64,000 nucleotides of DNA from Aliikangiella marina (GTDB lineage: Bacteria > Pseudomonadota > Gammaproteobacteria > Enterobacterales > Kangiellaceae). Location of the stretch: positions 310,001 to 374,000 of the forward strand of contig NZ_VIKR01000001.1 of the NCBI RefSeq assembly GCF_007004765.1, in the 5' to 3' direction. The notes below the pieces were generated by a model. It did no database searches. It was given only the letters and a program-made list of their open reading frames with translations, and was not told where the DNA came from. The first letter of the stretch is position 1; the number at the start of each line of letters is the position of its first letter. A program made the translations under genes and the position numbers. Shown one piece after another: positions 3,120 to 19,180 of the stretch.

Positions 3120-3121
3120 GC

Positions 3122-5251: not shown

Positions 5252-5254
5252 TGA

Positions 5255-6508
5255 TTAACTTTTACCTCGACTACTGGTTAGTCTTGCCCCCATGTACCCG
5301 CGCAAACTCAAAAACTGTTCGTTCTCCAGAAGTTCGTCTGGATCTTTTTCAGATAAGGCGATTAATTCTTCGGAAGTGAATGCTTCGTCGTGCTCAAAGC
5401 CCTCGTCATTCGGAACGTTGTAAACTGGTTTGCCTTTAGGGGTTTTATATTCAACAACGTCGATAGAGTGCTCCTGGATAAAAGTGAGAGGTACGAGGTC
5501 AAATATCCAGCTATGCTGCTTGCAACCTTTCCATTGATCCGCAGTACTTTTTAAAGCTGACTCATGGCGTTTACAAAACCAGGTGGCGTCTTGACCTTCA
5601 AGTATCGGCTGAGAGTGTCGACAGTTTCTGCAGTGAGCGCGCTCGGGCAACATGTCGCCCCAATAGACAGCCTGGTAATCTTCAGATTTGTAGTTTTTGA
5701 TTTCAAAATAGTTGCGATTAGGGTAACTACTTTCTGGTGGAATAATGGCTTCGAGGATTCTTTCAGCCTTATCTTTCAGTCCAGCCCACGCGAACTTTTC
5801 AAACTTAATTACTTCGCAATAAAGTTCAGATGTATCTTTGTTGTAAACAATCTCTAAGGCTCGATCTAAATTCGTCTTAGCCATATAGCATTGAACTTGC
5901 CCCCAGTATTCTGGGCTAGTTGCTTTGATGCCATGGTCTTTGAAGTTTTTGAAACGATCGTCTTTAGCTGATTTAAGCTCTAACACAGCCCATTTATCTG
6001 TGTTTGGTAGTCCTTGGATAACACCGTCACAGCTACCTGCGAAATGTCCACCAAGCATCTTGAAATTGATTTGATGACCAGTATCCGGGTCTACTTCAAT
6101 AACATTAAAACGCTTTTCTTTGCGAGCCTCTTCATCTCCCCAAACATCTAGGCCAAGAGTCTTTGCATCTTCTTGTGTTACTTCTTTTAGAAGCCTTATG
6201 ATTTCATCTTCAAGCAAGTTTCCTAGACTAAAAATCCGAAGTGTGCGAGCAGGGTGATTCCGTGGCAAACACCAATGAAAATCTAACCATAGCGTACGCT
6301 CATCCTCTTTACCGATTTGACTCATTCCAAGGTGGCCGCGAGGAACTTCAGAGCGATTGATTCTCTCCATGCTAGCGTCAAGTAAATCGATTACACTGAC
6401 TGCAGAGATCTCAAAATCCTCGACTGGCATATCGCCAACGGGTGTTGATTCAGTGGTTGGCTTTTCTTGTTTCTCTTTAGCTAATTGCAGAACTGTTTTT
6501 GATAGCAT
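5255..6508 (-). CDS. PD-(D/E)XK superfamily nuclease (Cas4/RecB-like)
   Basis: A 417-residue protein. The core contains GSCDGVIQG (metal-binding Asp), then WAVLELKSAKDD (the ExK motif), then a Tyr/Gln segment (YWGQVQCYM), the order seen in RecB/YqaJ-like exonucleases. A C-terminal CRNCRHSQ...WFCKRH cluster suggests a zinc or Fe-S site as in Cas4-type enzymes. It lies next to the helicase, suggesting a helicase-nuclease pair for phage recombination or end processing. AGGAG lies 9 bases upstream. Confidence 0.8.
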   Translation of the reverse strand: MLSKTVLQLAKEKQEKPTTESTPVGDMPVEDFEISAVSVIDLLDASMERINRSEVPRGHLGMSQIGKEDERTLWLDFHWCLPRNHPARTLRIFSLGNLLEDEIIRLLKEVTQEDAKTLGLDVWGDEEARKEKRFNVIEVDPDTGHQINFKMLGGHFAGSCDGVIQGLPNTDKWAVLELKSAKDDRFKNFKDHGIKATSPEYWGQVQCYMAKTNLDRALEIVYNKDTSELYCEVIKFEKFAWAGLKDKAERILEAIIPPESSYPNRNYFEIKNYKSEDYQAVYWGDMLPERAHCRNCRHSQPILEGQDATWFCKRHESALKSTADQWKGCKQHSWIFDLVPLTFIQEHSIDVVEYKTPKGKPVYNVPNDEGFEHDEAFTSEELIALSEKDPDELLENEQFLSLRGYMGARLTSSRGKS

Positions 6509-6511
6509 TCG

Positions 6512-8221
6512 CTAAGCTCCTTTATGGAATAAAATTTCAGTCACTTCTTTTTGTTTATCGTTTTCGTTTACCTTCACTTTCCAAATGCGCCGAAAGAAAT
6601 TACCGCTTCTAAGAATTTGCTCAGCCTCGATCGCATTCCGTGGGATTGGTGCGCCGTTTTTCATAAGTTGTACCCAATCCATTTTTGCAGCTTCACCGGC
6701 TATGCCAGGAGCACCGATAAGGAGTGTTTTATAGGCGTAGTTCATTAAGCCGCCAGAGAAGGTGATTCGGATTACTGGTTGACCATTGCTGATATTTTTA
6801 TGAAGAGAGCCGCTAACTTTCTTAACCCGAATCTCAACAGGTTTGTAGCCAGCTTCACTCGATAGAATTGCGCCGGTTCCTGCTTTCCCTTTATGGCTAA
6901 CAAACACATGGTCGCAAGCGACACATTTCGCGGCGGTAGGGGCGTTCTCTTGGCCGCATTCAGGGCAAAGCTTAAAAGGTGGAGGTGTAAATTGTTCGCC
7001 GCATACGTTGCACTTACGGGCGTAGAAACCGATTATCGCGCTACACTTCGGACAATCCTTCGTGCGTTTATCTTTCGCTTTTTCTGCTGGGGGTTGAGCA
7101 ATATCAATTGGCCCGAATCGGTCGATACAGCCACCAAAATCGAGCATCAAACAATCTTGCTTGCCTGTCTCTGGAGAAGGGCGAAGACCTCGACCAACCA
7201 TCTGAACATATAAGCCCAGCGACTTAGTAGGGCGTAGCATAGCAATGCAATCGATTGGTGGGATATCTGTGCCTTCAGTTAAAACCCCTACATTAGCGAT
7301 ACCATGGATCCGCAGGTTTTCTGCGTCTTCAATAATCTTTTCCCGTTTAGTCTTGGGTGTTATCTTTTTATCGCCTGTAAGTACAGGAACTATATAGCCT
7401 CGCTCGGCGAGCATATCACTGACCATCATTGCATGATGAACAGATACGCAGAAAAATATAGTTAGCTTACGTCCTACGGAAAGGCGTTCCCATTCATCGA
7501 GAGCGGCATTTAGAACGCTTGTCTTTTCCGCCGCAATCTCTAGTTCCTTTTTTACGAAATCATTGTTGACAGTCCTTATCCCTGTGGTATCGATATTCGA
7601 AATTTCAGAGGTTCGTGGCGCTACAACTACACAGAGATATCCTCTATCGATTAGCAGCTTAATTTTGACTTCGTAAGCTACGCCATCGAAAAGCTTTGAT
7701 TTGTCAAAACGCCCTCCTGTTTTATAAATTAATCCGCCAGTAGTCCGATAAGGAGTAGCAGTAAAGCCAACCACCATAAGTCGAGGGTTTTCACCTCGAA
7801 GATGGTTAATAATTTTTTGATATCCGGACTCTTCTTTTGGGCTGATATTGTGAGCCTCATCAATAATAATGAGGTCAAAGATCCCACAGTAATCGAGCGC
7901 ATTCACTAATGAGTCTCGGCTAGCGACTGTTATTGAACGAATTTCTTTGCGACCAATCGAAGCAGCAAATACACCTATAGGTGCCTCGGCCCATATCTTT
8001 TTGGTCTTATCTTCAGCTTGAGTGATTAGCTCAGCTCGGTGAGCTAATACAAGAATTCGAATTGATTCAACCTCTCGCTTTAATCGTTTGATCAACGAGC
8101 CAAAAATAATTGTTTTACCACCACCGGTAGGGATGACGACTAAGGGAAATTCGCCTGGTCGTTCTTCCCAGAACTTGTAGAGGTTATCAATAGTTTTTTG
8201 TTGGTAATCGCGAAGTTGCAT
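6512..8221 (-). CDS. SF2 DEAD/DEAH-box helicase with zinc ribbons
   Basis: A 569-residue ATP-dependent helicase: Walker A PTGGGKT at 31-37, DEAH box in LIIIDEAHN, motif III GFTATPYRT, and motif VI QMVGRGLRPS. Two zinc ribbons follow (CPKCSAIIGFYARKCNVCG and CPECGQENAPTAAKCVAC), then a C-terminal domain. The arrangement matches phage type III-restriction-like helicases involved in replication and recombination. It is followed at 4 bp by the nuclease gene. Confidence 0.9.
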   Translation of the reverse strand: MQLRDYQQKTIDNLYKFWEERPGEFPLVVIPTGGGKTIIFGSLIKRLKREVESIRILVLAHRAELITQAEDKTKKIWAEAPIGVFAASIGRKEIRSITVASRDSLVNALDYCGIFDLIIIDEAHNISPKEESGYQKIINHLRGENPRLMVVGFTATPYRTTGGLIYKTGGRFDKSKLFDGVAYEVKIKLLIDRGYLCVVVAPRTSEISNIDTTGIRTVNNDFVKKELEIAAEKTSVLNAALDEWERLSVGRKLTIFFCVSVHHAMMVSDMLAERGYIVPVLTGDKKITPKTKREKIIEDAENLRIHGIANVGVLTEGTDIPPIDCIAMLRPTKSLGLYVQMVGRGLRPSPETGKQDCLMLDFGGCIDRFGPIDIAQPPAEKAKDKRTKDCPKCSAIIGFYARKCNVCGEQFTPPPFKLCPECGQENAPTAAKCVACDHVFVSHKGKAGTGAILSSEAGYKPVEIRVKKVSGSLHKNISNGQPVIRITFSGGLMNYAYKTLLIGAPGIAGEAAKMDWVQLMKNGAPIPRNAIEAEQILRSGNFFRRIWKVKVNENDKQKEVTEILFHKGA

Positions 8222-8233
8222 TCGAATTCCTGT

Positions 8234-8249
8234 GCGCCCCGAAGGGCGC
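8234..8249 (-). other. Intercistronic hairpin
   Basis: A perfect 6-bp stem GCGCCC/GGGCGC with a 4-base CGAA loop lies between the DUF669 gene and the helicase, with no T run. It could stabilise or process the early mRNA or attenuate the downstream genes. Confidence 0.45.
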
Positions 8250-8257
8250 TTAATTAA

Positions 8258-8788
8258 TTACTGAGCTTGTTTTTTTAGGAATGCCGGAACCTTATCTGGC
8301 TGCGATGTTTGGGCTTGCTGTGGGGTTTTCTGAAGGCCTTGGCTTTGTTGCGGCTCTGAAGGTGCTACATATCCATTAGCCGATTTAAAGGCTTTAATCG
8401 TATTTTTGTCGTCGTATCCTTCTTGCTTTTGTATTCCTACTTTGCCAACAAAAACCTGGCCTTCTAAAGCGGTCACGGACGAAAACAAAAGTTGACCACT
8501 GGGTTCGTACCCGCAAGCTTTTATCCAGCTTTTCAATTCACCTACACCGATCTGAACGGCTTTAGCAGATTTATTCTTTATGTTGAACATTTGGAATATC
8601 TTTCGGCCTGCTTGCTCACCGTCGACGATTTCAAATTGCACGTTGATGTACTTGCCAGTGCCATCGTTAGTCGTTTTCAGGGTGACGTCTACAGCTTGCA
8701 TTGGGTATTCATTTGGTGGAACTACGTCAAAGTCTGTTTCTGGTATTTCATCCAGGTCATTACAAATTATTAAATCTTCTTGTTGCAT
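8258..8788 (-). CDS. DUF669 protein, probable ssDNA-binding/recombination factor
   Basis: A 176-residue acidic protein. FDVVPPNEYPMQAVDVTLK...VQFEIVDGEQAGRKIFQMFN with a disordered Gln/Pro-rich tail ending PAFLKKQAQ matches phage DUF669 proteins. These are OB-fold-like single-strand binding factors usually found next to Sak4-type RecA ATPases, as here. AAGGA precedes the start. Confidence 0.8.
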   Translation of the reverse strand: MQQEDLIICNDLDEIPETDFDVVPPNEYPMQAVDVTLKTTNDGTGKYINVQFEIVDGEQAGRKIFQMFNIKNKSAKAVQIGVGELKSWIKACGYEPSGQLLFSSVTALEGQVFVGKVGIQKQEGYDDKNTIKAFKSANGYVAPSEPQQSQGLQKTPQQAQTSQPDKVPAFLKKQAQ

Positions 8789-8799
8789 GGTTAAATTCC

Positions 8800-9021
8800 T
8801 TATTCAGTTAAAAAATCGATTAATGCTTGCTGTGTGTAAACAACATTTTTTGGTGATACTTGCTTATGCTTTGGTGCTAACTCAGTACCTTGATGCTTTC
8901 TCAGGTTTTCAGCGCTGCAGCGAACGAGAACGGCAGCTTCTCTTCGGGTGTATGTTTTGTGTGGTGATGTATTTGGATCTTCGAAAACCTGAAAAAGCAA
9001 TTTGCGTTCTTGTTCAGTCAT
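8800..9021 (-). CDS. Small putative DNA-binding protein, 73 aa
   Basis: The sequence YTRREAAVLVRCSAENLRKH suggests a helix-turn-helix of the MerR/excisionase type, followed by a basic strand and a short C-terminal helix. AGGGG lies 8 bases upstream. It lies between the Sak4-like ATPase and the DUF669 gene. Function unknown. Confidence 0.6.
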   Translation of the reverse strand: MTEQERKLLFQVFEDPNTSPHKTYTRREAAVLVRCSAENLRKHQGTELAPKHKQVSPKNVVYTQQALIDFLTE

Positions 9022-9024
9022 GAT

Positions 9025-9792
9025 TTACCCCTTTTTGGTGTCAGCGAAAAAAGCGTCGTAATGCTCAAGGAATGCACTGAACTCAAGCGGAAGTTTTTTC
9101 GGTAGGTTGTAACGGTTCTTAGCGTCATGAGCTGCATTGTGTTGCGTATGTAATTCACGACGGCCATAGGACTTGGCGACTGTTCGTTTGTTGAGCCCTT
9201 CGCCAACTTCTTTTTTGGATTTATCAAAGTCGGCGAACAGCAGGGCATCAGGCCACTGTTTGAGAAGCGGTGTAACTTGCTTTTCGCTGGTCGCTAATGT
9301 GTAGTGGTCGTAGCTTTCACCGGTTGGATCGTTAAAAGCTTTTACAACAGAGTGAGCAATAATGATGACATTCATATCGCGCTCACTTCTTAAAAAAGAG
9401 AGACAATCCAAGACTTCTTTGAACTTCTCGCCAACCATCTTGTAGCCTTTGCCGTAGCCTGCATCTTCAATTGAGTCCCAGCCATGCTGTTGGCAAAGAG
9501 ATTTGCTAATGATTTGTTCAAGCCAATCTGCTGAATCTACAATCACTGTCTCAAAGTGATGCTCTTCTTCGGCGAGAGTGATGATTGCCGCTCGAATGTC
9601 TTCTAAGTTCTGAGGAGCAGGGAAGCGGGTTACATCTAAACCGTCTGAGCCGTCTTCAGCACCAATGAAAATTGGATTAGGAGCACCAGCGGCGAAAGTG
9701 GTCTTGCCGACGCCTTCTAGGCCGTACAGCGTGATACGAAAGGGCGTTTTTCGTTTACCAACGATTAAATTGTCTAATGACATTTGGTTCAT
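9025..9792 (-). CDS. Sak4-like RecA-fold ATPase
   Basis: A 255-residue protein with Walker A GLEGVGKTT at 24-32, a Walker B-like TVIVDSADW, and VIIIAHSVVKAF, as in phage AAA_24/Sak4 recombinases (single-strand annealing or strand exchange). The ATG at 9792 overlaps the preceding stop (ATGA) with GGAG 8 bases upstream, so an upstream in-frame start at 9867 is rejected. It sits with DUF669, nuclease and helicase in a recombination module. Confidence 0.82.
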   Translation of the reverse strand: MNQMSLDNLIVGKRKTPFRITLYGLEGVGKTTFAAGAPNPIFIGAEDGSDGLDVTRFPAPQNLEDIRAAIITLAEEEHHFETVIVDSADWLEQIISKSLCQQHGWDSIEDAGYGKGYKMVGEKFKEVLDCLSFLRSERDMNVIIIAHSVVKAFNDPTGESYDHYTLATSEKQVTPLLKQWPDALLFADFDKSKKEVGEGLNKRTVAKSYGRRELHTQHNAAHDAKNRYNLPKKLPLEFSAFLEHYDAFFADTKKG

Positions 9793-10187
9793 TGCTTTTT
9801 CTCCGGAGTGAGTGAAACAGATGGGTTGGCGGGTTTCTTTGTTAAGAACGGGAGTAACCTGGCCCAAACTTCTGGCTTACTCTCGGCGAGTGCCTTTGAG
9901 TCTTTGAGCTTTTCCTTAAAAACAATGTCGAATGGAAATTCGTCAATTGGGGGGCGCTCTTCATTAACGAAGTCAAGCAATGCGACTTGGTCCCAAATTC
10001 GATTTTCCTTTCGGTCGACCCTAAGGCGATCGAAATTTCGGACGCCAAATGTCTGTCTTTTTAGCGATTCGATTACCTGCAGGTTATCTAAAATCAATTT
10101 TTTGCATGCGCTTAACTCGCCATTTGCATCATCAGCAATCTTCTTAAGAGCCTCAAAATCGGCCTGTAATTGGGCTAACGTTTTCAT
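9789..10187 (-). CDS. First gene of the leftward early operon, hypothetical
   Basis: A 132-residue protein with a coiled-coil N-terminus (LAQLQADFEALKKIADDANG) and a less ordered C-terminus. Such proteins often precede Sak4-type ATPases in phages, but the function is unknown. AAAGG precedes its start. It is transcribed from the promoter at 10232-10260. Confidence 0.7.
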   Translation of the reverse strand: MKTLAQLQADFEALKKIADDANGELSACKKLILDNLQVIESLKRQTFGVRNFDRLRVDRKENRIWDQVALLDFVNEERPPIDEFPFDIVFKEKLKDSKALAESKPEVWARLLPFLTKKPANPSVSLTPEKKQ

Positions 10188-10221
10188 TTCATTTATTACC
10201 TTTGTTAATTAAAAAGCATTA

Positions 10222-10309
10222 ATGATAGCGAAACGTAACCAATTTATTTCAGTATGTCAATAAATAAATGATCGCGAAACGCAATCAAAAATGATAGCGT
10301 AAAGAGATC
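10222..10309 (-). promoter_or_regulatory. Leftward early promoter with three operator repeats
   Basis: On the minus strand TTGACA (10255-10260), 17 bases, TACGTT (10232-10237). Three plus-strand direct repeats of consensus ATGATmGCGwAACGyAATC lie at 10222-10239 (over the -10), 10268-10286 (above the -35) and 10291-10309. One site in the promoter and two upstream is a typical repressor layout. The XRE protein at 10421-10657 is the obvious candidate binder. Confidence 0.7.
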
Positions 10310-10363
10310 AAAATATTGCTTGACAGAAAACTATGGATAGGCGTAGGTTAAAAAAAGGACAAC

Positions 10364-10389
10364 AAAAAAGGCCGCAATTGAGCGGCCCT
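10364..10389 (-). terminator. Terminator of the XRE gene
   Basis: The hairpin GGCCGC/GCGGCC has T runs on the minus strand (TTTTTTG) just after the stop of the leftward XRE gene. It separates that gene from the early promoter. Confidence 0.75.
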
Positions 10390-10420
10390 TTTAAGGTAAG
10401 AAAATGATTAGATTATTGAT

Positions 10421-10657
10421 TTACTGCTTTCTGAATCCGCAAAGTATTGCAGGGCTAACCTTTAATATCTCTGCTAGTTGGATGATATCGAATATATCAG
10501 GTGTTCTGCGGCCTGCCTCCCAGTATGCAATTCGGGTCCTTGAGCAGTTCATATACTCTGCTAAGTCTGTTTGCGATCTAAACCCAGCTTTCTTTCTGTA
10601 TTCAGATAAGCGCTTACCAATATCTACTGCGATTTCTTTTCTTTGCATTTCATCCAT
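10421..10657 (-). CDS. XRE/Cro-family repressor
   Basis: A 78-residue single-domain HTH protein: IGKRLSEYRKKAGFRSQTDL, AEYMNCSRTRIAYWEAGRR, then the hydrophobic helix DIFDIIQLAEILKVSPAIL. GGAG lies 9 bases upstream. It lies between the three-repeat early promoter and the 10-bp tandem array at 10721-10770, so it probably controls the leftward early operon, itself and the divergent genes. The CI-like repressor at 38.8-39.6 kb is separate. Confidence 0.85.
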   Translation of the reverse strand: MDEMQRKEIAVDIGKRLSEYRKKAGFRSQTDLAEYMNCSRTRIAYWEAGRRTPDIFDIIQLAEILKVSPAILCGFRKQ

Positions 10658-10720
10658 GAAATTAGCTCCAGATTGACTTTAAATTCACTGAATTACCTCT
10701 GAGGAAATTCAAAACTCAAA

Positions 10721-10770
10721 TGACAAACTATCACAAAACGTGACGAAAAGCGACAAAAAGTGACGAAAAG
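10721..10770. repeat. Five 10-bp tandem repeats, probable operator array
   Basis: Successive decamers TGACAAACTA, TCACAAAACG, TGACGAAAAG, CGACAAAAAG and TGACGAAAAG follow consensus yGACrAAAaG. The 10-bp period places every copy on one DNA face. It lies in the intergenic space between the leftward XRE gene and the rightward zinc-finger operon. Confidence 0.7.
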
Positions 10771-10771
10771 T

Positions 10772-10811
10772 GATAACAATTTGTTTGCATTAAGGAAAAC
10801 GAATTGTTGTC
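10772..10811. promoter_or_regulatory. Interrupted inverted repeat upstream of rightward early genes
   Basis: GATAACAATT (10772-10781) and AATTGTTGTC (10802-10811) are inverted copies with one mismatch, 20 bases apart. The same half sequence occurs in the 20-bp palindrome at 42890-42909. It may bind a host or phage regulator of the operon starting at 10841. Confidence 0.4.
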
Positions 10812-10840
10812 AATATCGATAACCATACGGATACAGGACT

Positions 10841-11047
10841 ATGACGGACATATTTGACCATGCCTCTGAATTAGAGGAATTACACCGACAACGGGCGCTA
10901 GAGAGCCATAAGAGCAGGGAGTCATCACCTTCTGATGATTGCGTGTCTTGTGGCGCAATTATCCCTCAAGCAAGGAAAAAGGCACTTCCGGAATGCAATC
11001 TCTGTATCGGATGCGCAACGATCAAAGAGCTACGGAGAAAGCCATGA
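10841..11047 (+). CDS. TraR/DksA-type zinc-finger protein
   Basis: A 68-residue protein. DDCVSCGAIIPQARKKALPE followed by CNLCIGCATI is the C4 zinc finger of phage TraR/DksA proteins, which bind the RNA polymerase secondary channel. An acidic helical N-terminus precedes it (MTDIFDHASELEELH). AGGA lies before the ATG. First gene of the rightward early operon; its stop overlaps the next start. Confidence 0.85.
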   Translation: MTDIFDHASELEELHRQRALESHKSRESSPSDDCVSCGAIIPQARKKALPECNLCIGCATIKELRRKP

Positions 11048-11163
11048 AACACCGTTCAAACAAAGGCCAAAGCACTAAGCGCGGCTCATATTCTCGCAAA
11101 GTAAAGGCGAGAACCCATCCAAAAATCAAACACTCTGATTATCCACCGAGGACAACACGATGA
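11044..11163 (+). CDS. Small very basic protein, 39 aa
   Basis: This frame starts at ATG 11044 (MKHRSNKGQSTKRGSYSRK) with GGAG 7 bases upstream. It overlaps the previous stop and the next start by ATGA contacts at both ends. It is rich in Lys, Arg and Ser, so nucleic-acid binding is likely. A longer frame extending upstream overlaps the DksA-like gene and is not needed. Confidence 0.6.
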   Translation: MKHRSNKGQSTKRGSYSRKVKARTHPKIKHSDYPPRTTR

Positions 11164-11510
11164 TAACTGTATGCATATTAGGCCCATACGCCTCTGAATC
11201 AGTCTATGAGCGAGACCTCAATGTCGAAGCTGTTCGCTATATCGGACTCAAGGTGGCAAGGCTTGGCTTAGTGCCTGTCATGCCTACTGTTGAAACTCAT
11301 AGGTTTGACCATGCCCAAGATAAAGCTTTTTTCGTTGATGCAGCGAAAGAGAAGATCCGCCGAAGCTCAGCAGTGTATCTGGTTGATGGTTCTGAGTATT
11401 CGCTTAATACCATGCGTTTAGCTGAGTACGCCAAGGAAATGAATATCCCGATATTCCACAGTCTTGAGTGCTTGAGGATCAATTACAACCTGGATCCAAT
11501 AGGAGTCTAA
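11160..11510 (+). CDS. Nucleoside 2-deoxyribosyltransferase-like/DUF4406-type protein
   Basis: A 116-residue protein. MITVCILGPYASESVYERDL, VARLGLVPVMPTVETHRFD and a buried SAVYLVDGSEYSLNTMRLAEYA resemble the small Rossmann-like DUF4406/nucleoside deoxyribosyltransferase fold common in phages. Nucleotide metabolism is possible, but catalytic residues are not clear. Confidence 0.6.
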   Translation: MITVCILGPYASESVYERDLNVEAVRYIGLKVARLGLVPVMPTVETHRFDHAQDKAFFVDAAKEKIRRSSAVYLVDGSEYSLNTMRLAEYAKEMNIPIFHSLECLRINYNLDPIGV

Positions 11511-11513
11511 ACA

Positions 11514-11756
11514 ATGAAGTCATTTGTAAGCGCGGCAGCACCAGAGAAAGCCATTCCATTGGAAGAAATCGAATATCAAAAGCTCTACGAAGTGATTGGC
11601 GAGGGTCACATTGTCCTCAGAGTGAATCTGAAATTTGCGATAGCACTGAATAGTGGAGGTGCAGTAAGCGCCCTCTATAACTTCGAGCTTTGCTCAGGAG
11701 TGTTTCTAGCTCGACCACTTCAATCTGGTGAGCATATCACTATTGTTCAAGACTAA
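11514..11756 (+). CDS. Hypothetical phage protein, 80 aa
   Basis: An 80-residue protein of mixed alpha/beta composition (VIGEGHIVLRVNLKFAIAL) without a recognised domain. It starts 3 bases after the preceding stop with AGGAG nearby. Confidence 0.6.
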   Translation: MKSFVSAAAPEKAIPLEEIEYQKLYEVIGEGHIVLRVNLKFAIALNSGGAVSALYNFELCSGVFLARPLQSGEHITIVQD

Positions 11757-11768
11757 AGGGGATCCAAA

Positions 11769-11969
11769 GTGACTAACGAAAGAAAAGTTAAGTGTTCTGT
11801 ATCAAACGAAATGATTTCAATTAAAGACATGCAAATTTGTGAGTGCTGCAGCCAACCATATCACAGAGAAAAGTGCGGTCAGAAAATTCCCTTTAAAGAT
11901 GATTTTCTTGAGATCTGCAATAACTGTAAAGCTAATGGAGCGTTCTTTCAAACGGATGAAAATTCATGA
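11769..11969 (+). CDS. Zinc-binding small protein, GTG start
   Basis: A 66-residue protein with CSVSNEMISIKDMQICECC...YHREKCGQK...EICNNCKANG, a PHD/RING-like arrangement of Cys and His suggesting two zinc sites. It begins with GTG after a GGGGATCC leader, and its last codons overlap the next start (ATGA). Function unknown. Confidence 0.6.
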   Translation: MTNERKVKCSVSNEMISIKDMQICECCSQPYHREKCGQKIPFKDDFLEICNNCKANGAFFQTDENS

Positions 11970-12250
11970 TCTACGCGAAAAACAGAACCAACTCATATGA
12001 ATACCTTGTTCGTTTAGATGGCATCAAGAATAAGTTTCAGGGTTGGCGCAACCAAATCGAAAAGAATCGAAAGCGCTTTAGTCGACCTGAGCGTCGGCGC
12101 AAATATGCTGAAGTAATAGAGAAGGAAAAGGCTGAGATAGCTGAGCTTGATGAAAATTTCACATCACTGGTCTGTTACAAGTGCGGCGCTCGAACCAAGA
12201 TTCTTTTTGATGATCGAGCTTGTAAGACGTGTACAAGTTTGGATGAATAA
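11966..12250 (+). CDS. Coiled-coil zinc-ribbon protein
   Basis: A 94-residue protein with a basic helical N-terminus (RNQIEKNRKRFSRPERRRKY), then a C-terminal CYKCGARTK...CKTC zinc ribbon. Coupled to the previous gene by ATGA. Probably nucleic-acid binding; family not recognised. Confidence 0.6.
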   Translation: MIYAKNRTNSYEYLVRLDGIKNKFQGWRNQIEKNRKRFSRPERRRKYAEVIEKEKAEIAELDENFTSLVCYKCGARTKILFDDRACKTCTSLDE

Positions 12251-12267
12251 ATTTAAAGGAAAGTTTT

Positions 12268-12567
12268 ATGGGTATCTGTAACCACCAAGATATATCTCAT
12301 TTATGGGACCATGTAAAATGCAAGCATTGCGGCTCAGTTAGAACCGATAGTGGGTGGGGGTTAGCCAAAAATCAATGGTTTGACTCTCTGGAGCATGCAA
12401 AGTTTTATCAGGAGAATGGCAGACTACCGGAAAATCCTAAAAGCGATACTGAAATAATCCGCAGAATCATTGAGCGAGGCATGAAGCGAGCACAAGAAAG
12501 AAGTGATTCAGAATTCATCGATATTTTTCAACATCTTAAAGATGAATTAGAACGAGTTAAAAATTAA
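12268..12567 (+). CDS. Small zinc-containing hypothetical protein, 99 aa
   Basis: The N-terminus CNHQDISHLWDHVKCKHCGS gives Cys/His metal ligands; the rest is helical (RRIIERGMKRAQER). It has a strong ribosome-binding site, and its 18-base leader plus start is repeated exactly just upstream of the tRNA-like element at 12581. Confidence 0.6.
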   Translation: MGICNHQDISHLWDHVKCKHCGSVRTDSGWGLAKNQWFDSLEHAKFYQENGRLPENPKSDTEIIRRIIERGMKRAQERSDSEFIDIFQHLKDELERVKN

Positions 12568-12578
12568 AGGAAAGTTTT

Positions 12579-12620
12579 ATGCGAGAGAGCTGTTGTCATC
12601 TGCGCGTTTGCGGGTGTTAA
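12579..12620 (+). CDS. 13-residue Cys-rich micro-ORF, possible leader peptide
   Basis: ATG after an AAAGGAAAGTTTT leader, reading MRESCCHLRVCGC then TAA. Four of 13 residues are Cys. The leader is an exact copy of the one before 12268. The frame overlaps the first half of the tRNA-like element, so it may be a leftover start rather than a translated peptide. Confidence 0.3.
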   Translation: MRESCCHLRVCGC

Positions 12621-12686
12621 GTTGCAACCAATGGCAAGGTAAGCGCTGGTCAAGTGTAGTAGGTTCGAGTCCTACCTCTCGCGCCA
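12581..12686 (+). other. tRNA-like element with intact acceptor and T-arm
   Basis: GCGAGAG (12581-12587) pairs perfectly with CTCTCGC (12676-12682), followed by G and an encoded CCA (12684-12686). The T-arm GTAGG-TTCGAGT-CCTAC (12659-12675) is canonical. The 71 bases between do not fold into a recognisable D-arm plus anticodon arm, and the 106-nt length exceeds normal tRNAs. It may be a disrupted tRNA, an intron-bearing or unusual tRNA, or a tRNA mimic. Confidence 0.55.
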
Positions 12687-12710
12687 AATTTATAAAATGG
12701 GATCAGCAAA

Positions 12711-14813
12711 TTGATCGACAACGCATTAGAACTAATCAGCCAAGGTTTCGCAATCTTCCCGCTCCACAATATTGAGAGCGGGTTTTGTTCTTGCGGTAAA
12801 GAATGTCCTAGTCCAGGTAAACATCCTCGAACGATTAACGGGGTCAAAGCAGCATCGAAAGATGAAGAGCAGATCCGCGAGTGGTGGACTAAGTGGCCGA
12901 ATGCCAATATAGGTATTGCAACGGGTAGGGCGTCGGACTTAGTAGTCTTAGATTTCGATCCGAAAGCAGGCGGCTTAGAGTACCGAGAAGAATTGCTCGA
13001 AGAAATACCAGAACTTGCGGAAACTCTAATTGTCTCAACGGGCGGTGGCGGCTTTCATCATTACTTTAGGATGCTCAGTGACATTGGTTGCTCAACTAAA
13101 GTTAATGGCTTTGGTCTCGATATCCGTGGCAATGGCGGCTATGTTGTTGCTCCGCCATCAAATCATGTGTCAGGGAATCAATACCATTGGCTCGACTGTG
13201 ATGACGACGAGCTCAATGAATGTATTATTGATTGTCCTTCAGAAGTATTAGAGTTATCTCGCATCAATCTATCAAAGAACCTGGAGTATAAACCGCTGCA
13301 GGGGGCCACTGTTCCACCACTTGATGAAGCGGAAATAGATTATCTAGTTAGTGCACTCAAACACATCAGGCCTTTAGGTGATAACTGGCTGCATGTTGGA
13401 ATGGCATTACACGAGAAGACTGGCGGTACCATGCAAGGGTTTAACCTGTGGGACACCTGGGCTAAAACTGAAATTGCTTATATCAAAGCTGATCCAAGCG
13501 AACACTTAAAAAGGTGGCGGTCATTCAAAGATAACAAGATCGATGGTATTACCATTGCCACTTTATATGGCAAAGCAACTGCTAACGGTTGGATAGAGGA
13601 ACCTCTAGTTGAACCGATTGTGATGGATATTCCCGGGCTAGAAAAACAAGAAGCCGAAAGGAAGTTAAAACCGCTGCCACTTGTACCAGTTCAACCATTG
13701 TTTCAGCCAATATCTGCAAAAGATATTATGAATAAGCCAAAAAGCGAACGAACGGCTAAGCCAATTTGGGGTAATCATGTTTTGTTTCGTTCTGGTCTTA
13801 TGTTAATAGCTGGTGAACCAAAAATCGGTAAGTCAGCACTATGGCAATCATTCGCAGCGCATGCGTGTACTGGTCGACCATTCTTTGATCTAGAGTTTGA
13901 AAAGCCTTGTCGGGTGCTCTGGTTTCAAGATGAAATTCATGAAGACTTTCTTCAAGACCGCCTTAGGCCGATGCTGGATAACTTCGGACAGACTGAGACA
14001 GAAAACAATATCGCGCTTCGTGCAATGATTGAAAACAATTTCTTTTTCGTTAATAAGCCAAAGATACGATTATCCAGCAAAGTTAATACAGGTCATCTTG
14101 CATTAATGCGTCAGGCAGTTGAGCAGATTAATCCAGATATTATTTGTTTCGATCCAATGGTTAACTTTCTTAGCGGTAATGAGAATGATAATGCAGAGAT
14201 GAATGAATTTATCGATAGTCTTCAAACACTCACTGAAGCAACCGAGAATCGCTGTGCTTTAGTTTTGATTCATCATATGAATAAATCATCAAAGGTATTA
14301 GAAAACGCCTTTGACGGGATTAGAGGAGCGTCTGCTATCCGTGGTAGTTATGACACAGGAATAGTTTTACGTAGGAATAGTAACAATGAAATTGAATGTC
14401 ATTATGAAACGCGTAACGGACCTTCGCCGGAGCCTCATTTAGTCGAATGGAATACCGAGACTTGGGAGTGGAAAACAAATGCACTCGAATTTAACAAATT
14501 GAGCGATGGAACAACGTTGGGTATCAAATTTGATATGCCCGAAGAGTATCTCGATTGCCTCACTCTTTTAAGAGGTGGCGGGCAATTTTACAACAACTGG
14601 GCAACACTCATTGCGCGCAAATTTAAAGTAACTGAACGAACAGCGAGAACTAAAATAAAATACATTCGTTCAGAGGGATCTGCATTCATTGAAGAAACAT
14701 CAAAAAAAGGAAATGTAAACGGAATACTTTTTACGTTTTCAAAAGAAGGCAGAGAAGAGCTTGCGAGGCTAGGGAAAATAGATCCAATTGAGCAAAAACC
14801 GACCGCCGGATAG
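12711..14813 (+). CDS. Bifunctional DNA primase/polymerase with replicative-helicase-type ATPase
   Basis: A 700-residue replication protein. The N-terminal Prim-Pol domain (about 1-180) has CSCGKECPSPGKHPR, IATGRASDLVVLDFDPKAGG and STGGGGFHHYF, with a GGYVVAPPS signature. A linker and PriCT-like region follow, then a RepA/KaiC-type ATPase with Walker A GEPKIGKS at about 368-375. The C-terminus looks like a winged helix. The start is a TTG at 12711: an in-frame stop sits at 12693 and no ATG intervenes. Predicted phage replication initiator primase-helicase. Confidence 0.88.
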   Translation: MIDNALELISQGFAIFPLHNIESGFCSCGKECPSPGKHPRTINGVKAASKDEEQIREWWTKWPNANIGIATGRASDLVVLDFDPKAGGLEYREELLEEIPELAETLIVSTGGGGFHHYFRMLSDIGCSTKVNGFGLDIRGNGGYVVAPPSNHVSGNQYHWLDCDDDELNECIIDCPSEVLELSRINLSKNLEYKPLQGATVPPLDEAEIDYLVSALKHIRPLGDNWLHVGMALHEKTGGTMQGFNLWDTWAKTEIAYIKADPSEHLKRWRSFKDNKIDGITIATLYGKATANGWIEEPLVEPIVMDIPGLEKQEAERKLKPLPLVPVQPLFQPISAKDIMNKPKSERTAKPIWGNHVLFRSGLMLIAGEPKIGKSALWQSFAAHACTGRPFFDLEFEKPCRVLWFQDEIHEDFLQDRLRPMLDNFGQTETENNIALRAMIENNFFFVNKPKIRLSSKVNTGHLALMRQAVEQINPDIICFDPMVNFLSGNENDNAEMNEFIDSLQTLTEATENRCALVLIHHMNKSSKVLENAFDGIRGASAIRGSYDTGIVLRRNSNNEIECHYETRNGPSPEPHLVEWNTETWEWKTNALEFNKLSDGTTLGIKFDMPEEYLDCLTLLRGGGQFYNNWATLIARKFKVTERTARTKIKYIRSEGSAFIEETSKKGNVNGILFTFSKEGREELARLGKIDPIEQKPTAG

Positions 14814-14859
14814 GGAAGCGGACTACATAGGAATGATGCGGAATATTCTGTCCGGAAAT

Positions 14860-14892
14860 GAATTTGTTTCCGTAAGGAAATTCCGTTTTTTT
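14860..14892 (+). terminator. Probable terminator after the primase-helicase gene
   Basis: A stem built on TTTCC-GTAA-GGAAA, extended by GAA/TTC pairs, is followed by a 7-T run at 14886-14892. Confidence 0.5.
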
Positions 14893-14939
14893 ATGCGTGT
14901 AAGTTATTGTTTTTAATGAGGAAAAGCTTAGGAAAGTAA

Positions 14940-14998
14940 GGAAAAAATCAAGTGCTCGCGTCCGTTCGCGTGAGGCGAAGCACGCTGTTGATTTTTCC
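14940..14998. other. Long interrupted inverted repeat (possible origin or structured RNA)
   Basis: GGAAAAAATCAA (14940-14951) is inverted at TTGATTTTTCC (14988-14998). Nested inside are GTGCT/AGCAC arms (14952-14956 and 14979-14983) and paired CGCG tracts. It lies between primase-helicase and rusA, so it could be an origin element or structured RNA. Confidence 0.45.
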
Positions 14999-15039
14999 AT
15001 ATTTCCAGCAAAAATTCAATACAATTAGGAAGAAAAATT

Positions 15040-15414
15040 ATGAATAAAATTTATCACTACGTTTTACCTTTTCCGGTATCAGTAAATGCAATTTATCAGG
15101 TCGCTTATAAGCGAATAATTCTCACAACAAAAGCGAGAGAATATAAACAAAAATTAGAGCGTGCTATCGAGAATATACAGGTAGAAAATTTAGGTAAAGC
15201 AAGGCTATCAATTCAATATGTTTTGTTTGCCCCGGACAACAGAGATTATGACGTCGCTAATTATGAAAAACTCCTCACAGATTGCTTGCAAGGAGTTGTG
15301 TTTGATAATGACAGTCAGATAGATGATAACCGACAAACAAGAGGGCAAGTTGATCCTGCTAATCCTCGGGTTGAGGTTTTTGTTCAGCCTCTGGGTAAAG
15401 CTTGTCCGAAATAG
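15040..15414 (+). CDS. rusA: RusA-family Holliday junction resolvase
   Basis: A 124-residue endonuclease. DNRDYDVANYEKLLTDCLQG and FDNDSQIDD place the metal-binding acidic residues (D69, D71, D89/D91) and a Lys as in RusA. It would resolve Holliday junctions or branched DNA before packaging. AGGAAG precedes the ATG. Its 3' end overlaps the convergent membrane gene by 56 bp. Confidence 0.9.
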   Translation: MNKIYHYVLPFPVSVNAIYQVAYKRIILTTKAREYKQKLERAIENIQVENLGKARLSIQYVLFAPDNRDYDVANYEKLLTDCLQGVVFDNDSQIDDNRQTRGQVDPANPRVEVFVQPLGKACPK

Positions 15415-15937
15415 AGCGAATTTGCTCTTTAGTTTGCTCGTAGTGTCTTGTAAACATTTTCTTAGCTGGACCTTCTTGCAACACTTTAAGGCTTCTCTGA
15501 ACCTGAATATCTCTCGAATTAACCGCTAGTGATGCATAAGCAGCCACGAGTGGCAGAACCCATTCGGCTTGATAGGCTTCTATAAGTCTTTTTTGTGTCG
15601 CCAATTGCTTTTCATAATCTTGTTTACTTAGTTCCGCATCTTCAACAGCTTTAGTTAATTCACTAATTTTATCCGCGAATTCTAAAGCAAACTCTCTTTT
15701 TAAAATTTCTTCGAATTTACTAGGGTCGAACTTGTCTGCATAGATCATTGCACTATCAGCAACTGATGCTTGATCTTTTATCAATTGTGATTGTGTGTTA
15801 ATAGCGCTCTCTATGACTTCTGCCTTTTTCTTCATTGTCCATATAATGATTCCTTGAGCGATCAATACTCCTCCCATAAGAATTGAGTCTATCCAAAATT
15901 TTAACGATGAAGCGCTATTTGCAATCGTTTCTTCCAT
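15359..15937 (-). CDS. Membrane-anchored coiled-coil protein, antisense moron candidate
   Basis: A 192-residue protein with one membrane helix at about 16-35 (IDSILMGGVLIAQGIIIWTM), a long coiled coil (40-125) and a helical C-terminus. It lies opposite to the surrounding operon and overlaps rusA. An independently expressed lysogenic gene (moron), for example for superinfection exclusion, is an inference. No known family is recognised. Confidence 0.7.
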   Translation of the reverse strand: MEETIANSASSLKFWIDSILMGGVLIAQGIIIWTMKKKAEVIESAINTQSQLIKDQASVADSAMIYADKFDPSKFEEILKREFALEFADKISELTKAVEDAELSKQDYEKQLATQKRLIEAYQAEWVLPLVAAYASLAVNSRDIQVQRSLKVLQEGPAKKMFTRHYEQTKEQIRSISDKLYPEAEQKPQPED

Positions 15938-15998
15938 TTCACAATCTCCGTTCCCAAAAGCTCCATTCTGCCAATTGCGTCCGTTACATGCAATATAG

Positions 15999-16010
15999 CG
16001 ACTCGGATGT
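15999..16010 (+). promoter_or_regulatory. CGACTCGGATGT motif, copy 1
   Basis: The first of three identical 12-mers, each in a gap just before a late module. An AT-rich CAATATA lies immediately upstream, as also at copy 3. It precedes the holin-like/HNH/terminase genes. A late-promoter element or a processing site is plausible. Confidence 0.5.
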
Positions 16011-16077
16011 ATCTCAAAGCAATAAACAGTAAATTTTAAGCGTCCTCAATTGGACTTCAAATGCAGACTGGGATATT

Positions 16078-16105
16078 GCCCGCCTAATTGGGCGGGACTT
16101 TTTTA
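16078..16105 (+). terminator. Hairpin with T run before late genes
   Basis: CCCGCC/GGCGGG with a short loop is followed by TTTTTT (16099-16104). It lies between motif copy 1 and the first late gene, so it may be a terminator crossed by an antitermination mechanism. Confidence 0.65.
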
Positions 16106-16118
16106 TAAGGGTTTAATC

Positions 16119-16343
16119 ATGGCACCAAGTCAAGGTGAGAGATTAGCAAGTTTAGAAACGAGAGTTGATAGAACAGAGCAGGACATAGACTCGCTTCATG
16201 GAGCTATAAAGCGGCTAACTAATGAAATCCATAGCCTAGTAATCCTCTTGAGTAAAACCAAAGGCCTAGTAACAGGTGTGTTCTTTGCTACATCAGCATT
16301 ATGGACTGTATTACTGGCTGGCTGGAAATTGCTTGTTGGTTAA
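16119..16343 (+). CDS. Holin-like small protein (coiled coil plus one TM)
   Basis: A 74-residue protein: N-terminal amphipathic coiled coil (ERLASLETRVDRTEQDID), then one C-terminal membrane helix (GVFFATSALWTVLLAGW). This resembles XhlA/holin-associated proteins. The ATG at 16119 follows AAGGG; the upstream extension of the frame has no supporting start. It is the first gene of the late block. Lysis function is inferred. Confidence 0.55.
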   Translation: MAPSQGERLASLETRVDRTEQDIDSLHGAIKRLTNEIHSLVILLSKTKGLVTGVFFATSALWTVLLAGWKLLVG

Positions 16344-16352
16344 GAGGATGAG

Positions 16353-16727
16353 ATGCCTAAACGACTTCCTACTTATTGCCGTAAGCGTGGTTGTAACGTC
16401 ATTGTTGACAAGCCTGGTTACTGTAAAGCTCATCAAGGAGATGCAACTAACTGGGGCAAATATCAACGAAAGCAAGGAAACACAACTGACCGTGGTTATG
16501 GTGCTGCCTGGCGTAAGACCAGAGTTCGCATTAAGGCCAGGGCAAAAGGACTTTGTGAGCCATGTAAAGAACAAGGATTTATTCATCTCGGCTCCATATG
16601 TGACCACATCATACCAAAGGCCGAGGGAGGCACAGACGACGAGTCTAATCTGCAATGGGTATGCGATGCCTACCATAAAAAGAAGACCGCTCAGGAAGGA
16701 GCACGAGGGCGCAAACGAGGTGATTAG
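16353..16727 (+). CDS. HNH endonuclease next to terminase
   Basis: A 124-residue HNH nuclease: zinc pair CEPCKEQG, then CDHIIPKAEGGTDDESNLQW (the HNH core), then the C/H-KKKTAQE end. In HK97-type phages an HNH protein beside TerS/TerL is needed for cos cleavage, which suggests cohesive-end packaging. GAGG precedes the ATG. Confidence 0.9.
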   Translation: MPKRLPTYCRKRGCNVIVDKPGYCKAHQGDATNWGKYQRKQGNTTDRGYGAAWRKTRVRIKARAKGLCEPCKEQGFIHLGSICDHIIPKAEGGTDDESNLQWVCDAYHKKKTAQEGARGRKRGD

Positions 16728-16859
16728 AGCAAGTTATTCGTTTTAGAAAAAGAGGGGGGCGTCGAAAAGTTTAGAGCTTTTCATAGCGGTGAACGCTCGC
16801 CTAGTCAGAAACACACACCCGCGAAATAAGAATTTTCCTAATTGGTAGATTTTGGAGAG

Positions 16860-17384
16860 ATGAAGACACCAACAAAGAAAAGAGCGCGCGGCGGTGGGAG
16901 AAAGAAGAAACCTTCAGCGGTTAAAAAGCTGAATGGCAATCCTGGTAAGCGGAAGGTCAATCAGAAAGAACCGCAGTATGGTGAAATAACCCACGTCGAT
17001 CCGCCAACCTACATGAAGACGGACGGGAAAAAAGTCTGGCACTCGTTGATCGGTTTATTAATCTCCGAGGGTGTTCTGCAAGTTACCGATCTGCACGTCC
17101 TTGAAGTTTTTTGTAATTCCTATGCCGTGTATCGAGCAGCAAACAGAAAACTCAATCAGATGGGATTATTAATCACTACGCCTAAAGGTGATTTGAAAAA
17201 GAATCCTGCAGCTACGCTCATAAACGAAACTACTCGTCAAATGGCAACCTATGGCGCGATGCTTGGACTCGATCCAGCAAGTCGCCAAGCACTAACTGGA
17301 ACCGGTGGAGAGGAAGAGGATGCACTTGATGCACTCTTAAAAACGAAACTCAAAAAGCTTGAAGAACGGGGACAGGGTGGTTGA
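16860..17384 (+). CDS. terS: Terminase small subunit (P27 family)
   Basis: A 174-residue protein with a basic N-terminus (KKRARGGGRKKKPSAVKKLN), PKRK-like and HVDPPTYM elements, and LNQMGLLITTPKGDLKKNP, the signature of P27-type TerS. It binds the packaging site and recruits TerL. The ATG at 16860 is preferred over a TTG 18 bases upstream. It overlaps terL by a few bases. Confidence 0.88.
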   Translation: MKTPTKKRARGGGRKKKPSAVKKLNGNPGKRKVNQKEPQYGEITHVDPPTYMKTDGKKVWHSLIGLLISEGVLQVTDLHVLEVFCNSYAVYRAANRKLNQMGLLITTPKGDLKKNPAATLINETTRQMATYGAMLGLDPASRQALTGTGGEEEDALDALLKTKLKKLEERGQGG

Positions 17385-19110
17385 GCAATCGGCGGCGGTC
17401 GCGGTTGACTACGCAAACAAGATCGTTAGCGGTGAAAAAAAAGCTTGCCGATACGCGAAGCTTGCTTGTCAGCGACACTTAGCTGATTTAGACAAAGCAG
17501 CTAACGATCCAGATTGTCCTTATTACTTTGATGAAGAAGAAGCCCAAATGGTTATCGACTTTATCAATGTCCTGAAGCATTCTAAAGGTTCATTTGCTGG
17601 TAAACCTTTTTATCTAGCTGACTGGCAGATCTTCATAGTCTCAGTATTCTTTGGTTGGAAGAAAAAAGAAAACGGTTTTAGAAAGTACCGTACCCTCTAC
17701 ATTGAAGTGCCGAGAAAGAATGGTAAGTCGACTTTGCTTGCGGCTATTGGGCTTTATTTGTTGGTGATGGATGGTGAAGCAGGAGCAGAAGTCTATTCGG
17801 CTGCCACCAAGAAAGATCAGGCTATGGCAGTTTGGGAAGAAGCCAAGCGAATGGTCAAAGCGTGCAAGGCTCTTAGAAAGAGAATAAAAATTTATCGATC
17901 GAACCTTTCTTTTGAAGCGACTTACTCTAAGTTCGATCCACTCTCAGCTGATGCGGATACATTAGACGGATTAAACGTTTCCGGAGGAATAGTCGACGAG
18001 CTTCACGCTCATAAGACTTCAGCGGTTTGGGATGTCCTTGATTCTGGTACTGGATCGAGAGATCAACCTGCAATAATTGCGATTACAACAGCTGGAGGCA
18101 ATCAACACGGAATTTGTTATCAACTTCGATCAGATTTAATAAAGATTCTCGAAGGAATTTTTGAAGATGACTCAATATTCGGAATTATTTATACCATTGA
18201 TGGCGATGGAACTGGCTCAATAGATAAAAAGACCGGCCAAAAAAACGATGATGCATTCGATCCGGAGGTATGGGAGAAGGCAAACCCATGTTGGGGTGAG
18301 TCAGTAAAAACAGAAGATATCGAGCGGTTAGCTGCAAAAGCTAAGCGTCTTCCTTCTCAATACAATAATTTCCTTACCAAGCGATTAAATGTATGGGTCA
18401 ACGCGGTTGAGGCTTGGGTCAACGTACCCAAATGGCTTGAGTGTTTTGATGAAATCGACAAAGAAAAGCTCAAAGGTCGTGTCGCCTACGGCGGCCTCGA
18501 TCTAGCGAGTGTGTCTGATTTAGCGAGTTTCCGGCTTCTATTTCCTATGAGTGATGGAACTTACAAGACATTTGGTCGCGCTTATTGTCCGGAAGATGCG
18601 ATCGATGATCGATCAAAGCTTGATGGTGTGCCATATCAACAATGGGTTGATGATGGGTATTTGATAGCGACACCTGGCGCAACAATCGATTATGACTTTA
18701 TCAAGAAAGATATCATGGATTTTTGCGAGATCTACGATATAAGAATGATTGGCGTCGATCGATGGAATTCAACTCAGATAGTTAATGACCTTCTTGAAGA
18801 AGAGATCCCGATCGTTGGTTTTGGTCAGGGCTTTGCCTCGATGAATGCTCCTATGAAAGAGCTGGAACGGTTGTACCTTGATAAAGATATTGAGCATGAT
18901 GGCGATCCAATCATGAATTGGGCTATGTCTAACGTCGTTGCAAAGCTTGATGAAGCCGAGAATATTAAGCCAGATAAAAAGAAGAGTACGGAGAAGATAG
19001 ATCCAGTTGTAGCCTTAGTCATTGCTTTAGGTGTTTATCTGAATGACGACACTGAAGACGGTGACGATCCTGGAATCATCGATTTAGAGGCCATGTTCGG
19101 CGATTCATAA
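17377..19110 (+). CDS. terL: Terminase large subunit
   Basis: About 577 residues. The ATPase half has Walker A VPRKNGKST and GGIVDELHAHKT (motif II). The nuclease half has acidic residues in GGLDLASVSDLASF and GVDRWNST. It packages DNA and cleaves it. GTG at 17377 (after GGGGACAG) is the likely start; an in-frame TTG lies 18 bases earlier. It overlaps terS. Confidence 0.92.
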   Translation: MVEQSAAVAVDYANKIVSGEKKACRYAKLACQRHLADLDKAANDPDCPYYFDEEEAQMVIDFINVLKHSKGSFAGKPFYLADWQIFIVSVFFGWKKKENGFRKYRTLYIEVPRKNGKSTLLAAIGLYLLVMDGEAGAEVYSAATKKDQAMAVWEEAKRMVKACKALRKRIKIYRSNLSFEATYSKFDPLSADADTLDGLNVSGGIVDELHAHKTSAVWDVLDSGTGSRDQPAIIAITTAGGNQHGICYQLRSDLIKILEGIFEDDSIFGIIYTIDGDGTGSIDKKTGQKNDDAFDPEVWEKANPCWGESVKTEDIERLAAKAKRLPSQYNNFLTKRLNVWVNAVEAWVNVPKWLECFDEIDKEKLKGRVAYGGLDLASVSDLASFRLLFPMSDGTYKTFGRAYCPEDAIDDRSKLDGVPYQQWVDDGYLIATPGATIDYDFIKKDIMDFCEIYDIRMIGVDRWNSTQIVNDLLEEEIPIVGFGQGFASMNAPMKELERLYLDKDIEHDGDPIMNWAMSNVVAKLDEAENIKPDKKKSTEKIDPVVALVIALGVYLNDDTEDGDDPGIIDLEAMFGDS

Positions 19111-19113
19111 AAT

Positions 19114-19125
19114 CGACTCGGATGT
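19114..19125 (+). promoter_or_regulatory. CGACTCGGATGT motif, copy 2
   Basis: Identical to 15999-16010 and 32813-32824. It starts 4 bases after the terL stop, with CATAAAAT directly before it, and precedes the portal/capsid module by 56 bases. Confidence 0.5.
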
Positions 19126-19180
19126 CAATTTCCACAGATTATTTAGCATAAGCCTATCATTGTTAACTTAGGCTTTTAGC

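Follow-up and report, generated by a model that had tools for sequence, protein, structure and literature searches.

The tRNA-ended RNA closest in layout to the element described here is RNA C of phage T4 (species 1 RNA; NC_000866, 70908-71046), a phage RNA which one account reports as seen on Northern blots and calls an RNA of unknown function (PMC9697503). Its ends pair as an acceptor-like stem, a long arm occupies the D position, and this is followed by a hairpin and a 5-bp T-arm carrying TTCGAAT, with no predicted anticodon arm. The T4 sequence is matched by 718 INPHARED records, 698 of them over at least 80%, and at E values up to 1 it has no Rfam match. In the six relatives that we aligned, 29 of the 30 T-stem cells are paired, one pair showing compensatory types, and the T-loop is altered in ZX14. 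The end stem carries two U-U mismatches in 6/6 relatives and one G-C for A-U change, and its 3' strand could instead pair 7/7 with an internal CGGAACG in T4. We also observed that, in RNA C (contig L266, 1409-1547, minus strand), a TTGACG of the long arm and a CGTCAA of the hairpin are complementary and invariant in 6/6 relatives, a possible pseudoknot.

Other RNAs share parts of the tRNA fold. YrlA (RF02553) is described as a non-coding RNA that mimics tRNA, its arms including D, T and acceptor-like ones, and tmRNA (RF00023) as having a tRNA-like domain with a typical T-loop (PMC8394870). Phage C4 RNA and phage M3 RNA are reported as RNase P substrates (PMC11143913). Concerning the enzyme, bacterial RNase P reads the stack formed by the acceptor stem and the T-arm, and is said to cleave any RNA presenting it (PMC4919913).

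Here we analysed a stretch of 64,000 nt from Aliikangiella marina (hereafter the window), in which a first-pass annotation, made on the sequence alone, had pointed out a tRNA-like element with normal ends and an abnormal interior. The element is 106 nt long and both of its ends read as those of a tRNA: the acceptor stem, the T-arm and an NCCA end are all present, the 12 pairs of acceptor and T-stem are all Watson-Crick, and the T-arm abuts the acceptor 3' strand, forming a 12-bp stack (Table 1). We scanned the window for an acceptor stem of 7/7 pairs, a T-stem of 5/5 pairs and GTTCRANNC, and found two places, the real tRNA-Ser and the element. The same scan on 60 dinucleotide shuffles of the window gave on average 0.03 places with any tail and none with CCA; the ends are far beyond chance, and the observation of a tRNA-like element with perfect acceptor stem, discriminator G, encoded CCA and canonical T-arm is confirmed. 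We also ran the scan on 97 loci (532 kb) that had been selected by protein rather than by any tRNA pattern; it returned three copies of the element and one true tRNA. It had also been claimed that the 71 bases in between fit no normal D-arm and anticodon arm. Our search agrees: no arm of at least 4 pairs with U33 and a purine at 37 is present in the element, and none preceded by a D-arm is present in its interior. However, about 44% of shuffled interiors do contain a D-arm followed by such an arm, so the missing anticodon arm, by itself, is weak evidence.

Table 1. Coordinates of the element, of its proposed parts and of its surroundings, in positions of the window
Feature	Position	Strand	Basis
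tRNA-like element, 106 nt	12581..12686	+	sequence
Acceptor stem, 5' strand GCGAGAG	12581..12587	+	sequence; paired in MFE and centroid
Interior, 71 bases, without canonical anticodon arm	12588..12658	+	sequence
Proposed stem P2, 5' strand GCU-g-UUGUCA, D-arm position	12589..12598	+	constrained fold; L034 equivalent
Alternative hairpin CAUCUGC/GCGGGUG of the MFE, competing with P2	12597..12616	+	free folding
ACCAATGGC, identical in L034	12627..12635	+	sequence comparison
Proposed stem P2, 3' strand UGGCAA-GGU	12632..12640	+	constrained fold; L034 comparison
Short hairpin GCGCU-GGUCA-AGUGU between P2 and T-arm	12643..12657	+	free and constrained folding
T-arm GTAGG-TTCGAGT-CCTAC	12659..12675	+	sequence, folding; one pair changed on both sides relative to L034
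Acceptor stem, 3' strand CTCTCGC	12676..12682	+	sequence; paired in MFE and centroid
Discriminator G and encoded CCA	12683..12686	+	sequence
Predicted RNase P cut, after U(-1) and before G+1	12580..12581	+	acceptor 5' end; RNase P rule as stated in PMC4919913
13-codon frame ATG..TAA (MRESCCHLRVCGC)	12579..12620	+	sequence, by eye
22-nt direct repeat, first copy, extending to the ATG of the upstream ORF	12249..12270	+	repeat search
22-nt direct repeat, second copy, 95% identical; its last base is base 1 of the element	12560..12581	+	repeat search
Upstream ORF, 99 aa	12268..12567	+	no family found in PHROGs, Pfam, PADLOC
Prim-Pol / PriCT-2 / AAA_25 primase-helicase, TTG start	12711..14813	+	domain matches
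Prophage	about 1052..45230		offset from match to own IMG/VR record (L004)

The element belongs to a prophage adjoining a tRNA-Ser. On the minus strand of this prophage, at 1231-2478, is an integrase-like ORF (identity assigned by eye), and rightward small ORFs start at 10841 with a DksA-like one. In the rightward early operon, 143 bp separate a small ORF from the primase gene, and the element takes up most of this space, so that the early-operon setting proposed earlier is borne out, in an intergenic position and outside any tRNA array. The TTG start of the primase lies 24 nt past the end of the element, and the primase cannot start upstream of it, because the open frame has only 705 codons against the 700 of the gene. 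Consensus scans gave no promoter or terminator match at the element, and defence-gene models gave no match in the six ORFs tested. The 22-nt repeat, which covers a ribosome-binding region and a start codon, flanks the upstream ORF on both sides, and the ATG of a Cys-rich frame of 13 codons, running over the element, ends on the element's first base. Elsewhere in the prophage, overlapping 20-nt repeats of the ACAAAACGTGACGAAAAGCG type, with 10-nt spacing, are found at 10733-10772, just upstream of the early operon, and are possibly operator or origin iterons; an isrK-like RNA and a C4 antisense RNA (40502-40680) are followed by an antirepressor-like ORF (40919-41503, by eye).

No call was made at the element by ARAGORN at default settings, even allowing introns up to 200 nt, the sole tRNA of the window being tRNA-Ser(TGA) at 851-941. 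At half threshold a tRNA fit was obtained over the whole element, with TGC as the anticodon and an intron of 10 nt, while its probable homologue in another phage (L034, see below) was fitted as a tRNA-Pyl(CTA) with a 33-nt intron; the same setting added at least three spurious calls to a control with four tRNAs. The idea of a tRNA with an intron, offered in the first-pass annotation, is thus poorly supported, with nothing at default and fits that are inconsistent between the two elements. At gathering thresholds Rfam has no match at the element, its calls elsewhere in the window being the tRNA-Ser, the C4 antisense RNA and the isrK RNA; when a segment of 301 bases was searched with E up to 10, the top match was tRNA-Sec with 19 bits, under the cut-off of 47 and with 44 bases unaligned, and this identity was rejected. 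A tRNA finder at default and Rfam would therefore overlook elements of this kind.

The window element resembles the described RNAs only in part. It has no RF00023 match and its discriminator is G. The discriminator of tmRNA is A. It differs from YrlA in that its genome has no TROVE match, in the lack of an Rfam match and in its different closing stem, while the C4 RNA is a separate feature of the same prophage (40594-40680, Rfam). The comparison with T4 RNA C concerns layout, and it holds only if the stem that we call P2 forms, which in our constrained fold lies 2.2 kcal/mol above the minimum free energy. No sequence similarity was detected between the two (p about 0.8), and unlike the window element RNA C has no encoded CCA, lies within a tRNA cluster and is 139 nt long. 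By this analogy, the element would be like T4 RNA C in its layout, but it is not a member of its family by sequence.

Free folding, which the first-pass annotation had suggested as a check, keeps the acceptor stem and the T-arm of the element, and the fold energy is only modestly unusual (z -1.87; 8 of 200 shuffles equally or more stable). The corresponding z values are -2.18 for L034, -1.99 for a further odd phage element, L029, and -1.08 and -0.39 for the two elements of a third contig, L267; as modelled, none of the odd elements has more than a modestly low energy. P2, with 9 pairs and a bulge in the window element, is absent from its minimum free energy structure; in L034, that structure contains an 8-bp stem starting from the ninth base, the equivalent of P2. 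A two-row alignment with L034, fitted by covariance model (CM), pairs in 57/57 cells, against 37-54% in slid controls, and four pairs are changed on both sides between the two elements (one in P2, two in the hairpin, one in the T-stem); it should be noted that the alignment, of two sequences, was fitted to the structure and that the pair counts were equalled by 32 of 500 shuffles. The interior fold is accordingly presented as a proposal.

Relatives of the element were searched for in IMG/VR with a pattern fixing its ends. The 20 stretches obtained were sorted by inspection: 12 have an 85-nt tRNA-Leu form (the three of them run in ARAGORN were all tRNA-Leu), one is the window's own prophage, four share a 97-98 nt tRNA-Leu-like form, and the rest are L029, L034 and L039, the last being a tRNA by Rfam. 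The four tRNA-Leu-like elements, on four phage contigs (L033, L038, L040, L041), have an abnormal anticodon region; ARAGORN called L038 and L040 as tRNA-??? with anticodon 'gccc' and left L033 and L041 uncalled.

L034 (IMGVR_UViG_3300005086_000162, element at 732-843) shares with the window element, beyond the pattern, the TTTAT before the element, the AG after the acceptor strand and ACCAATGGC; the CCAATGGC within this segment is also common in ordinary tRNA D-arms. The two elements are alike in their ends, in GCGAGAGAG, in ACCAATGGC and in a P2-type arm, and differ in that L034 has discriminator U, a longer stretch from P2 to the T-arm, and a position upstream of terminase genes (by tblastn) rather than of a primase. 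In addition, L034 has one arm of 4 pairs with U33 and a purine at 37, with no D-arm before it. The similarity between the two interiors exceeds that of about 99.6% of shuffles; the p value of about 0.004 is modest and is the smallest in ten comparisons among five odd elements, the next being L034 against L267 at 0.06-0.07. Taken separately, the part of the interior to the left of ACCAATGGC gives p 0.015 and that to its right p 0.71. For the 60 nt preceding the elements the alignment likewise gives p 0.016 (p 0.55 for the 60 nt following them), so such p values may be lenient. From the sequences, the L034 element is probably homologous to that of the window. Conservation of the acceptor and T-arm pairing in homologues had been named as a check, and L034, the single probable homologue, does keep it, but the search pattern demanded that pairing. 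Through the L034 terminase we reached 79 phage relatives (79 of the 80 kept from 110), and no such element was seen in the DNA examined (at most 3 kb to either side and frequently less), so the L034 element is accessory in its own phage group.

With a covariance model of the element, L034 scored 40.7 bits, ordinary tRNAs up to 31.7 and L039 33.6. In 369 genomes of the class and 40 of the family this model found no further member above the tRNA background, the best match having 37.9 bits; ARAGORN found an ordinary tRNA at each of the six loci checked, two longer matches (135 and 163 nt) being outside those six. Among 198 genomes (its own included) two match, the own genome with the full element and another (G061) with only 24 nt of a tRNA-Arg, and a gapped pattern of the ends occurs in 1 of 394 genomes of the order, again its own. 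The L034 element gave no DNA match in the 369 genomes of the class, in a search run without a positive control. Around relatives of the primase (13 loci, the prophage itself included, 2 loci, and a second place in the same genome, several with little or no upstream DNA), no tRNA-like element was found by ARAGORN (18 loci) or by the end scan. For the upstream ORF only the own prophage matched among viral contigs, in a search that reaches close relatives only.

Further patterns were scanned in viral sequences, each requiring an exact match to the fixed letters. The pattern CCAATGGC..AGGTTCGANTCCT gave 106 stretches, none of them with GCGAGAGAG apart from the own prophage and L034; by eye, ordinary tRNAs make up most of the remainder, alongside a few matches that are odd or due to chance, such as L099 and L118. 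ATCTG..ACCAATGGC..GGTTCGA gave nine stretches, the seven others being two tRNA clusters (L147, L150) and five without full ends, and TGCGAGAGAG..GGTTCGA gave three, of which the third (L146) builds its end stem, by eye, from other sequence. A pattern with longer gaps found one stretch, L267. The first 80 nt of the element had no match in plasmids and matched nine INPHARED records, the best (E 0.05) in coding sequence and one in unannotated DNA of Aeromonas phage MF (E 0.2). A query of the 501 bases surrounding the element returned short partial matches to 566 records, mostly to tRNA genes among those listed. We found no description of the element in the literature covered, that is, titles and opening lines, with most subscription journals outside the coverage.

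L029 (IMGVR_UViG_3300045391_004178) is a phage contig encoding a TROVE/Ro60 protein (E 8e-45; 1-1320), with a YrlA match below threshold (37 bits against a cut-off of 69; 2100-2185) and another tRNA-like element, whose acceptor stem is complete (2351-2444), all on the minus strand; the L029 element is plausibly a phage Y RNA, and the contig a candidate phage Ro60/Y RNA locus with two RNAs. L267 (IMGVR_UViG_3300015076_000002) carries tandem tRNA-like elements on the plus strand, at about 1945-1996 and 1999-2119, upstream of an HNH-like ORF and recombination genes (identities by eye). The first is a minimal acceptor/T-arm of about 51 nt with a 4-bp T-stem, the second is 121 nt long with a branched predicted interior; neither is called by ARAGORN or Rfam, and the 48-kb record has no TROVE match. 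Overall, in 278 loci (1.8 Mb), many of them chosen by tRNA patterns, we counted 32 distinct odd tRNA-like elements outside ARAGORN calls against 980 T-arms inside calls, the latter not de-duplicated. These 32 include the window element, L034, L029, L267 and an internal pairing within T4 RNA C. Phage tRNA arrays thus contain, as a recurring minority, odd elements whose ends are good; the element of the window lies outside any array.

The explanation that we prefer, with a probability of roughly 0.5, is that the element encodes a phage-borne small RNA with tRNA ends and without anticodon, excised from the early transcript and acting in trans. The early transcript would fold at the element into the 12-bp stack, host RNase P would cut before the first base, and the tRNA 3' maturation of the host would trim the other side to CCA. 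A stable RNA of about 106 nt would be released, in which a non-tRNA domain, made of the P2 arm and the short hairpin, is mounted on a tRNA scaffold; as a by-product, the primase message would now begin 24 nt upstream of its start codon, at a new 5' end. The most economical guess for a partner would be a host protein handling tRNAs that reads the acceptor/T half and not the anticodon. The features of an RNase P substrate are present (the 12-bp stack, a U at -1 and an RCCA end), and from them the element is probably cut out by the tRNA-processing enzymes of the host. If the region is transcribed and folded as drawn, excision is a strong inference, because RNase P is said to cleave any RNA bearing such a stack, and M3 and C4 RNA are reported substrates. 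The first-pass annotation was therefore partly right in its interpretation: of its four proposals, a tRNA mimic is favoured, in the sense of a tRNA-ended RNA, processing punctuation is compatible with our data and the intron is poorly supported; the broken tRNA is considered next.

A phage tRNA whose middle was replaced or rearranged in a recent event, leaving intact ends and no present function, would produce a similar object, and we regard this origin as rather unlikely although several observations fit it. The last 34 nt of the element are 85% like a host tRNA-Arg(TCT) gene, 24 of them being 96% like a tRNA-Arg of G061, and its acceptor strands are those of the host tRNA-Leu(TAG), as a chimera would have; besides, the distribution of the element is very narrow and odd elements are not rare in tRNA-rich phage loci (the 32 in 278 loci counted above). 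Against it stand the perfection of all 12 end pairs and of the CCA, the position outside any tRNA array and the interior, part of which seems to recur in L034. Slow decay is unlikely, because the ends are perfect while the interior has no recognisable tRNA remnant. As for a tRNA broken by insertion, the interior resembles none of three tRNA interiors (tRNA-Leu, tRNA-Arg and phage tRNA-Leu; p 0.30, 0.89 and 0.40). It is also conceivable, though we judge it improbable, that the tRNA ends serve only in cis, as a site for RNase P and 3' processing that splits off the primase message from the small genes preceding it, with no role for the RNA thereby released. The preserved part is just the module that RNase P measures, and this enzyme is said to cleave any RNA presenting it (PMC4919913); moreover, a start codon lies close downstream in three cases (24 nt in the window, 17 nt in L034, 31 nt in L267), although the downstream frames of L034 and L267 are candidate genes only. 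However, a bare minihelix would suffice for this purpose, and a 71-nt interior partly similar to that of L034 would be superfluous.

Two further readings appear far less probable. The frame of 13 codons, together with the duplicated ribosome-binding region, might act as a leader peptide or translation switch, with the tRNA-like fold as alternative structure and an RNase P cut between the U and the G of AUG silencing the frame. It is true that the stretch leading into the upstream ORF recurs, 95% identical, up to an ATG whose last base is also base 1 of the element, and that four of the 13 codons are Cys (by eye); but in L034 the reading frame opened by the corresponding ATG encodes only MRES (by eye), so the frame is not conserved, and we find this switch very improbable. 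Least probable of all is a Y RNA-like partner of a Ro60 (TROVE) protein. It was suggested by L029, a contig found by the same end pattern, which has a TROVE gene, a sub-threshold YrlA match and a tRNA-like element with the same acceptor sequence, and bacterial Y RNAs are described as mimicking tRNA (PMC8394870). Neither the host genome nor the prophage record has a TROVE match, while a Deinobacterium control and the L029 record do; the element itself has no RF02553 match, and its ends form an acceptor stem, unlike the large basal stem described for YrlA in that source.

Returning to the excised, trans-acting RNA, a broader and more tentative idea, which we hold as a possibility on the doubtful side, is that the outer half of tRNA (acceptor, T-arm and often CCA) is a cassette with which phages have unrelated cargo RNAs excised and stabilised by the tRNA enzymes of the host; the window element with L034, the pair of L267 and T4 RNA C would then each independently exemplify a single, undescribed class of natural tRNA-scaffold RNAs. 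An RNA from the early operon of a temperate phage, laid out like RNA C, would offer a second and simpler system in which to study the role of such RNAs, and would let one ask whether tRNA ends are tags for the processing and stability of phage RNAs.
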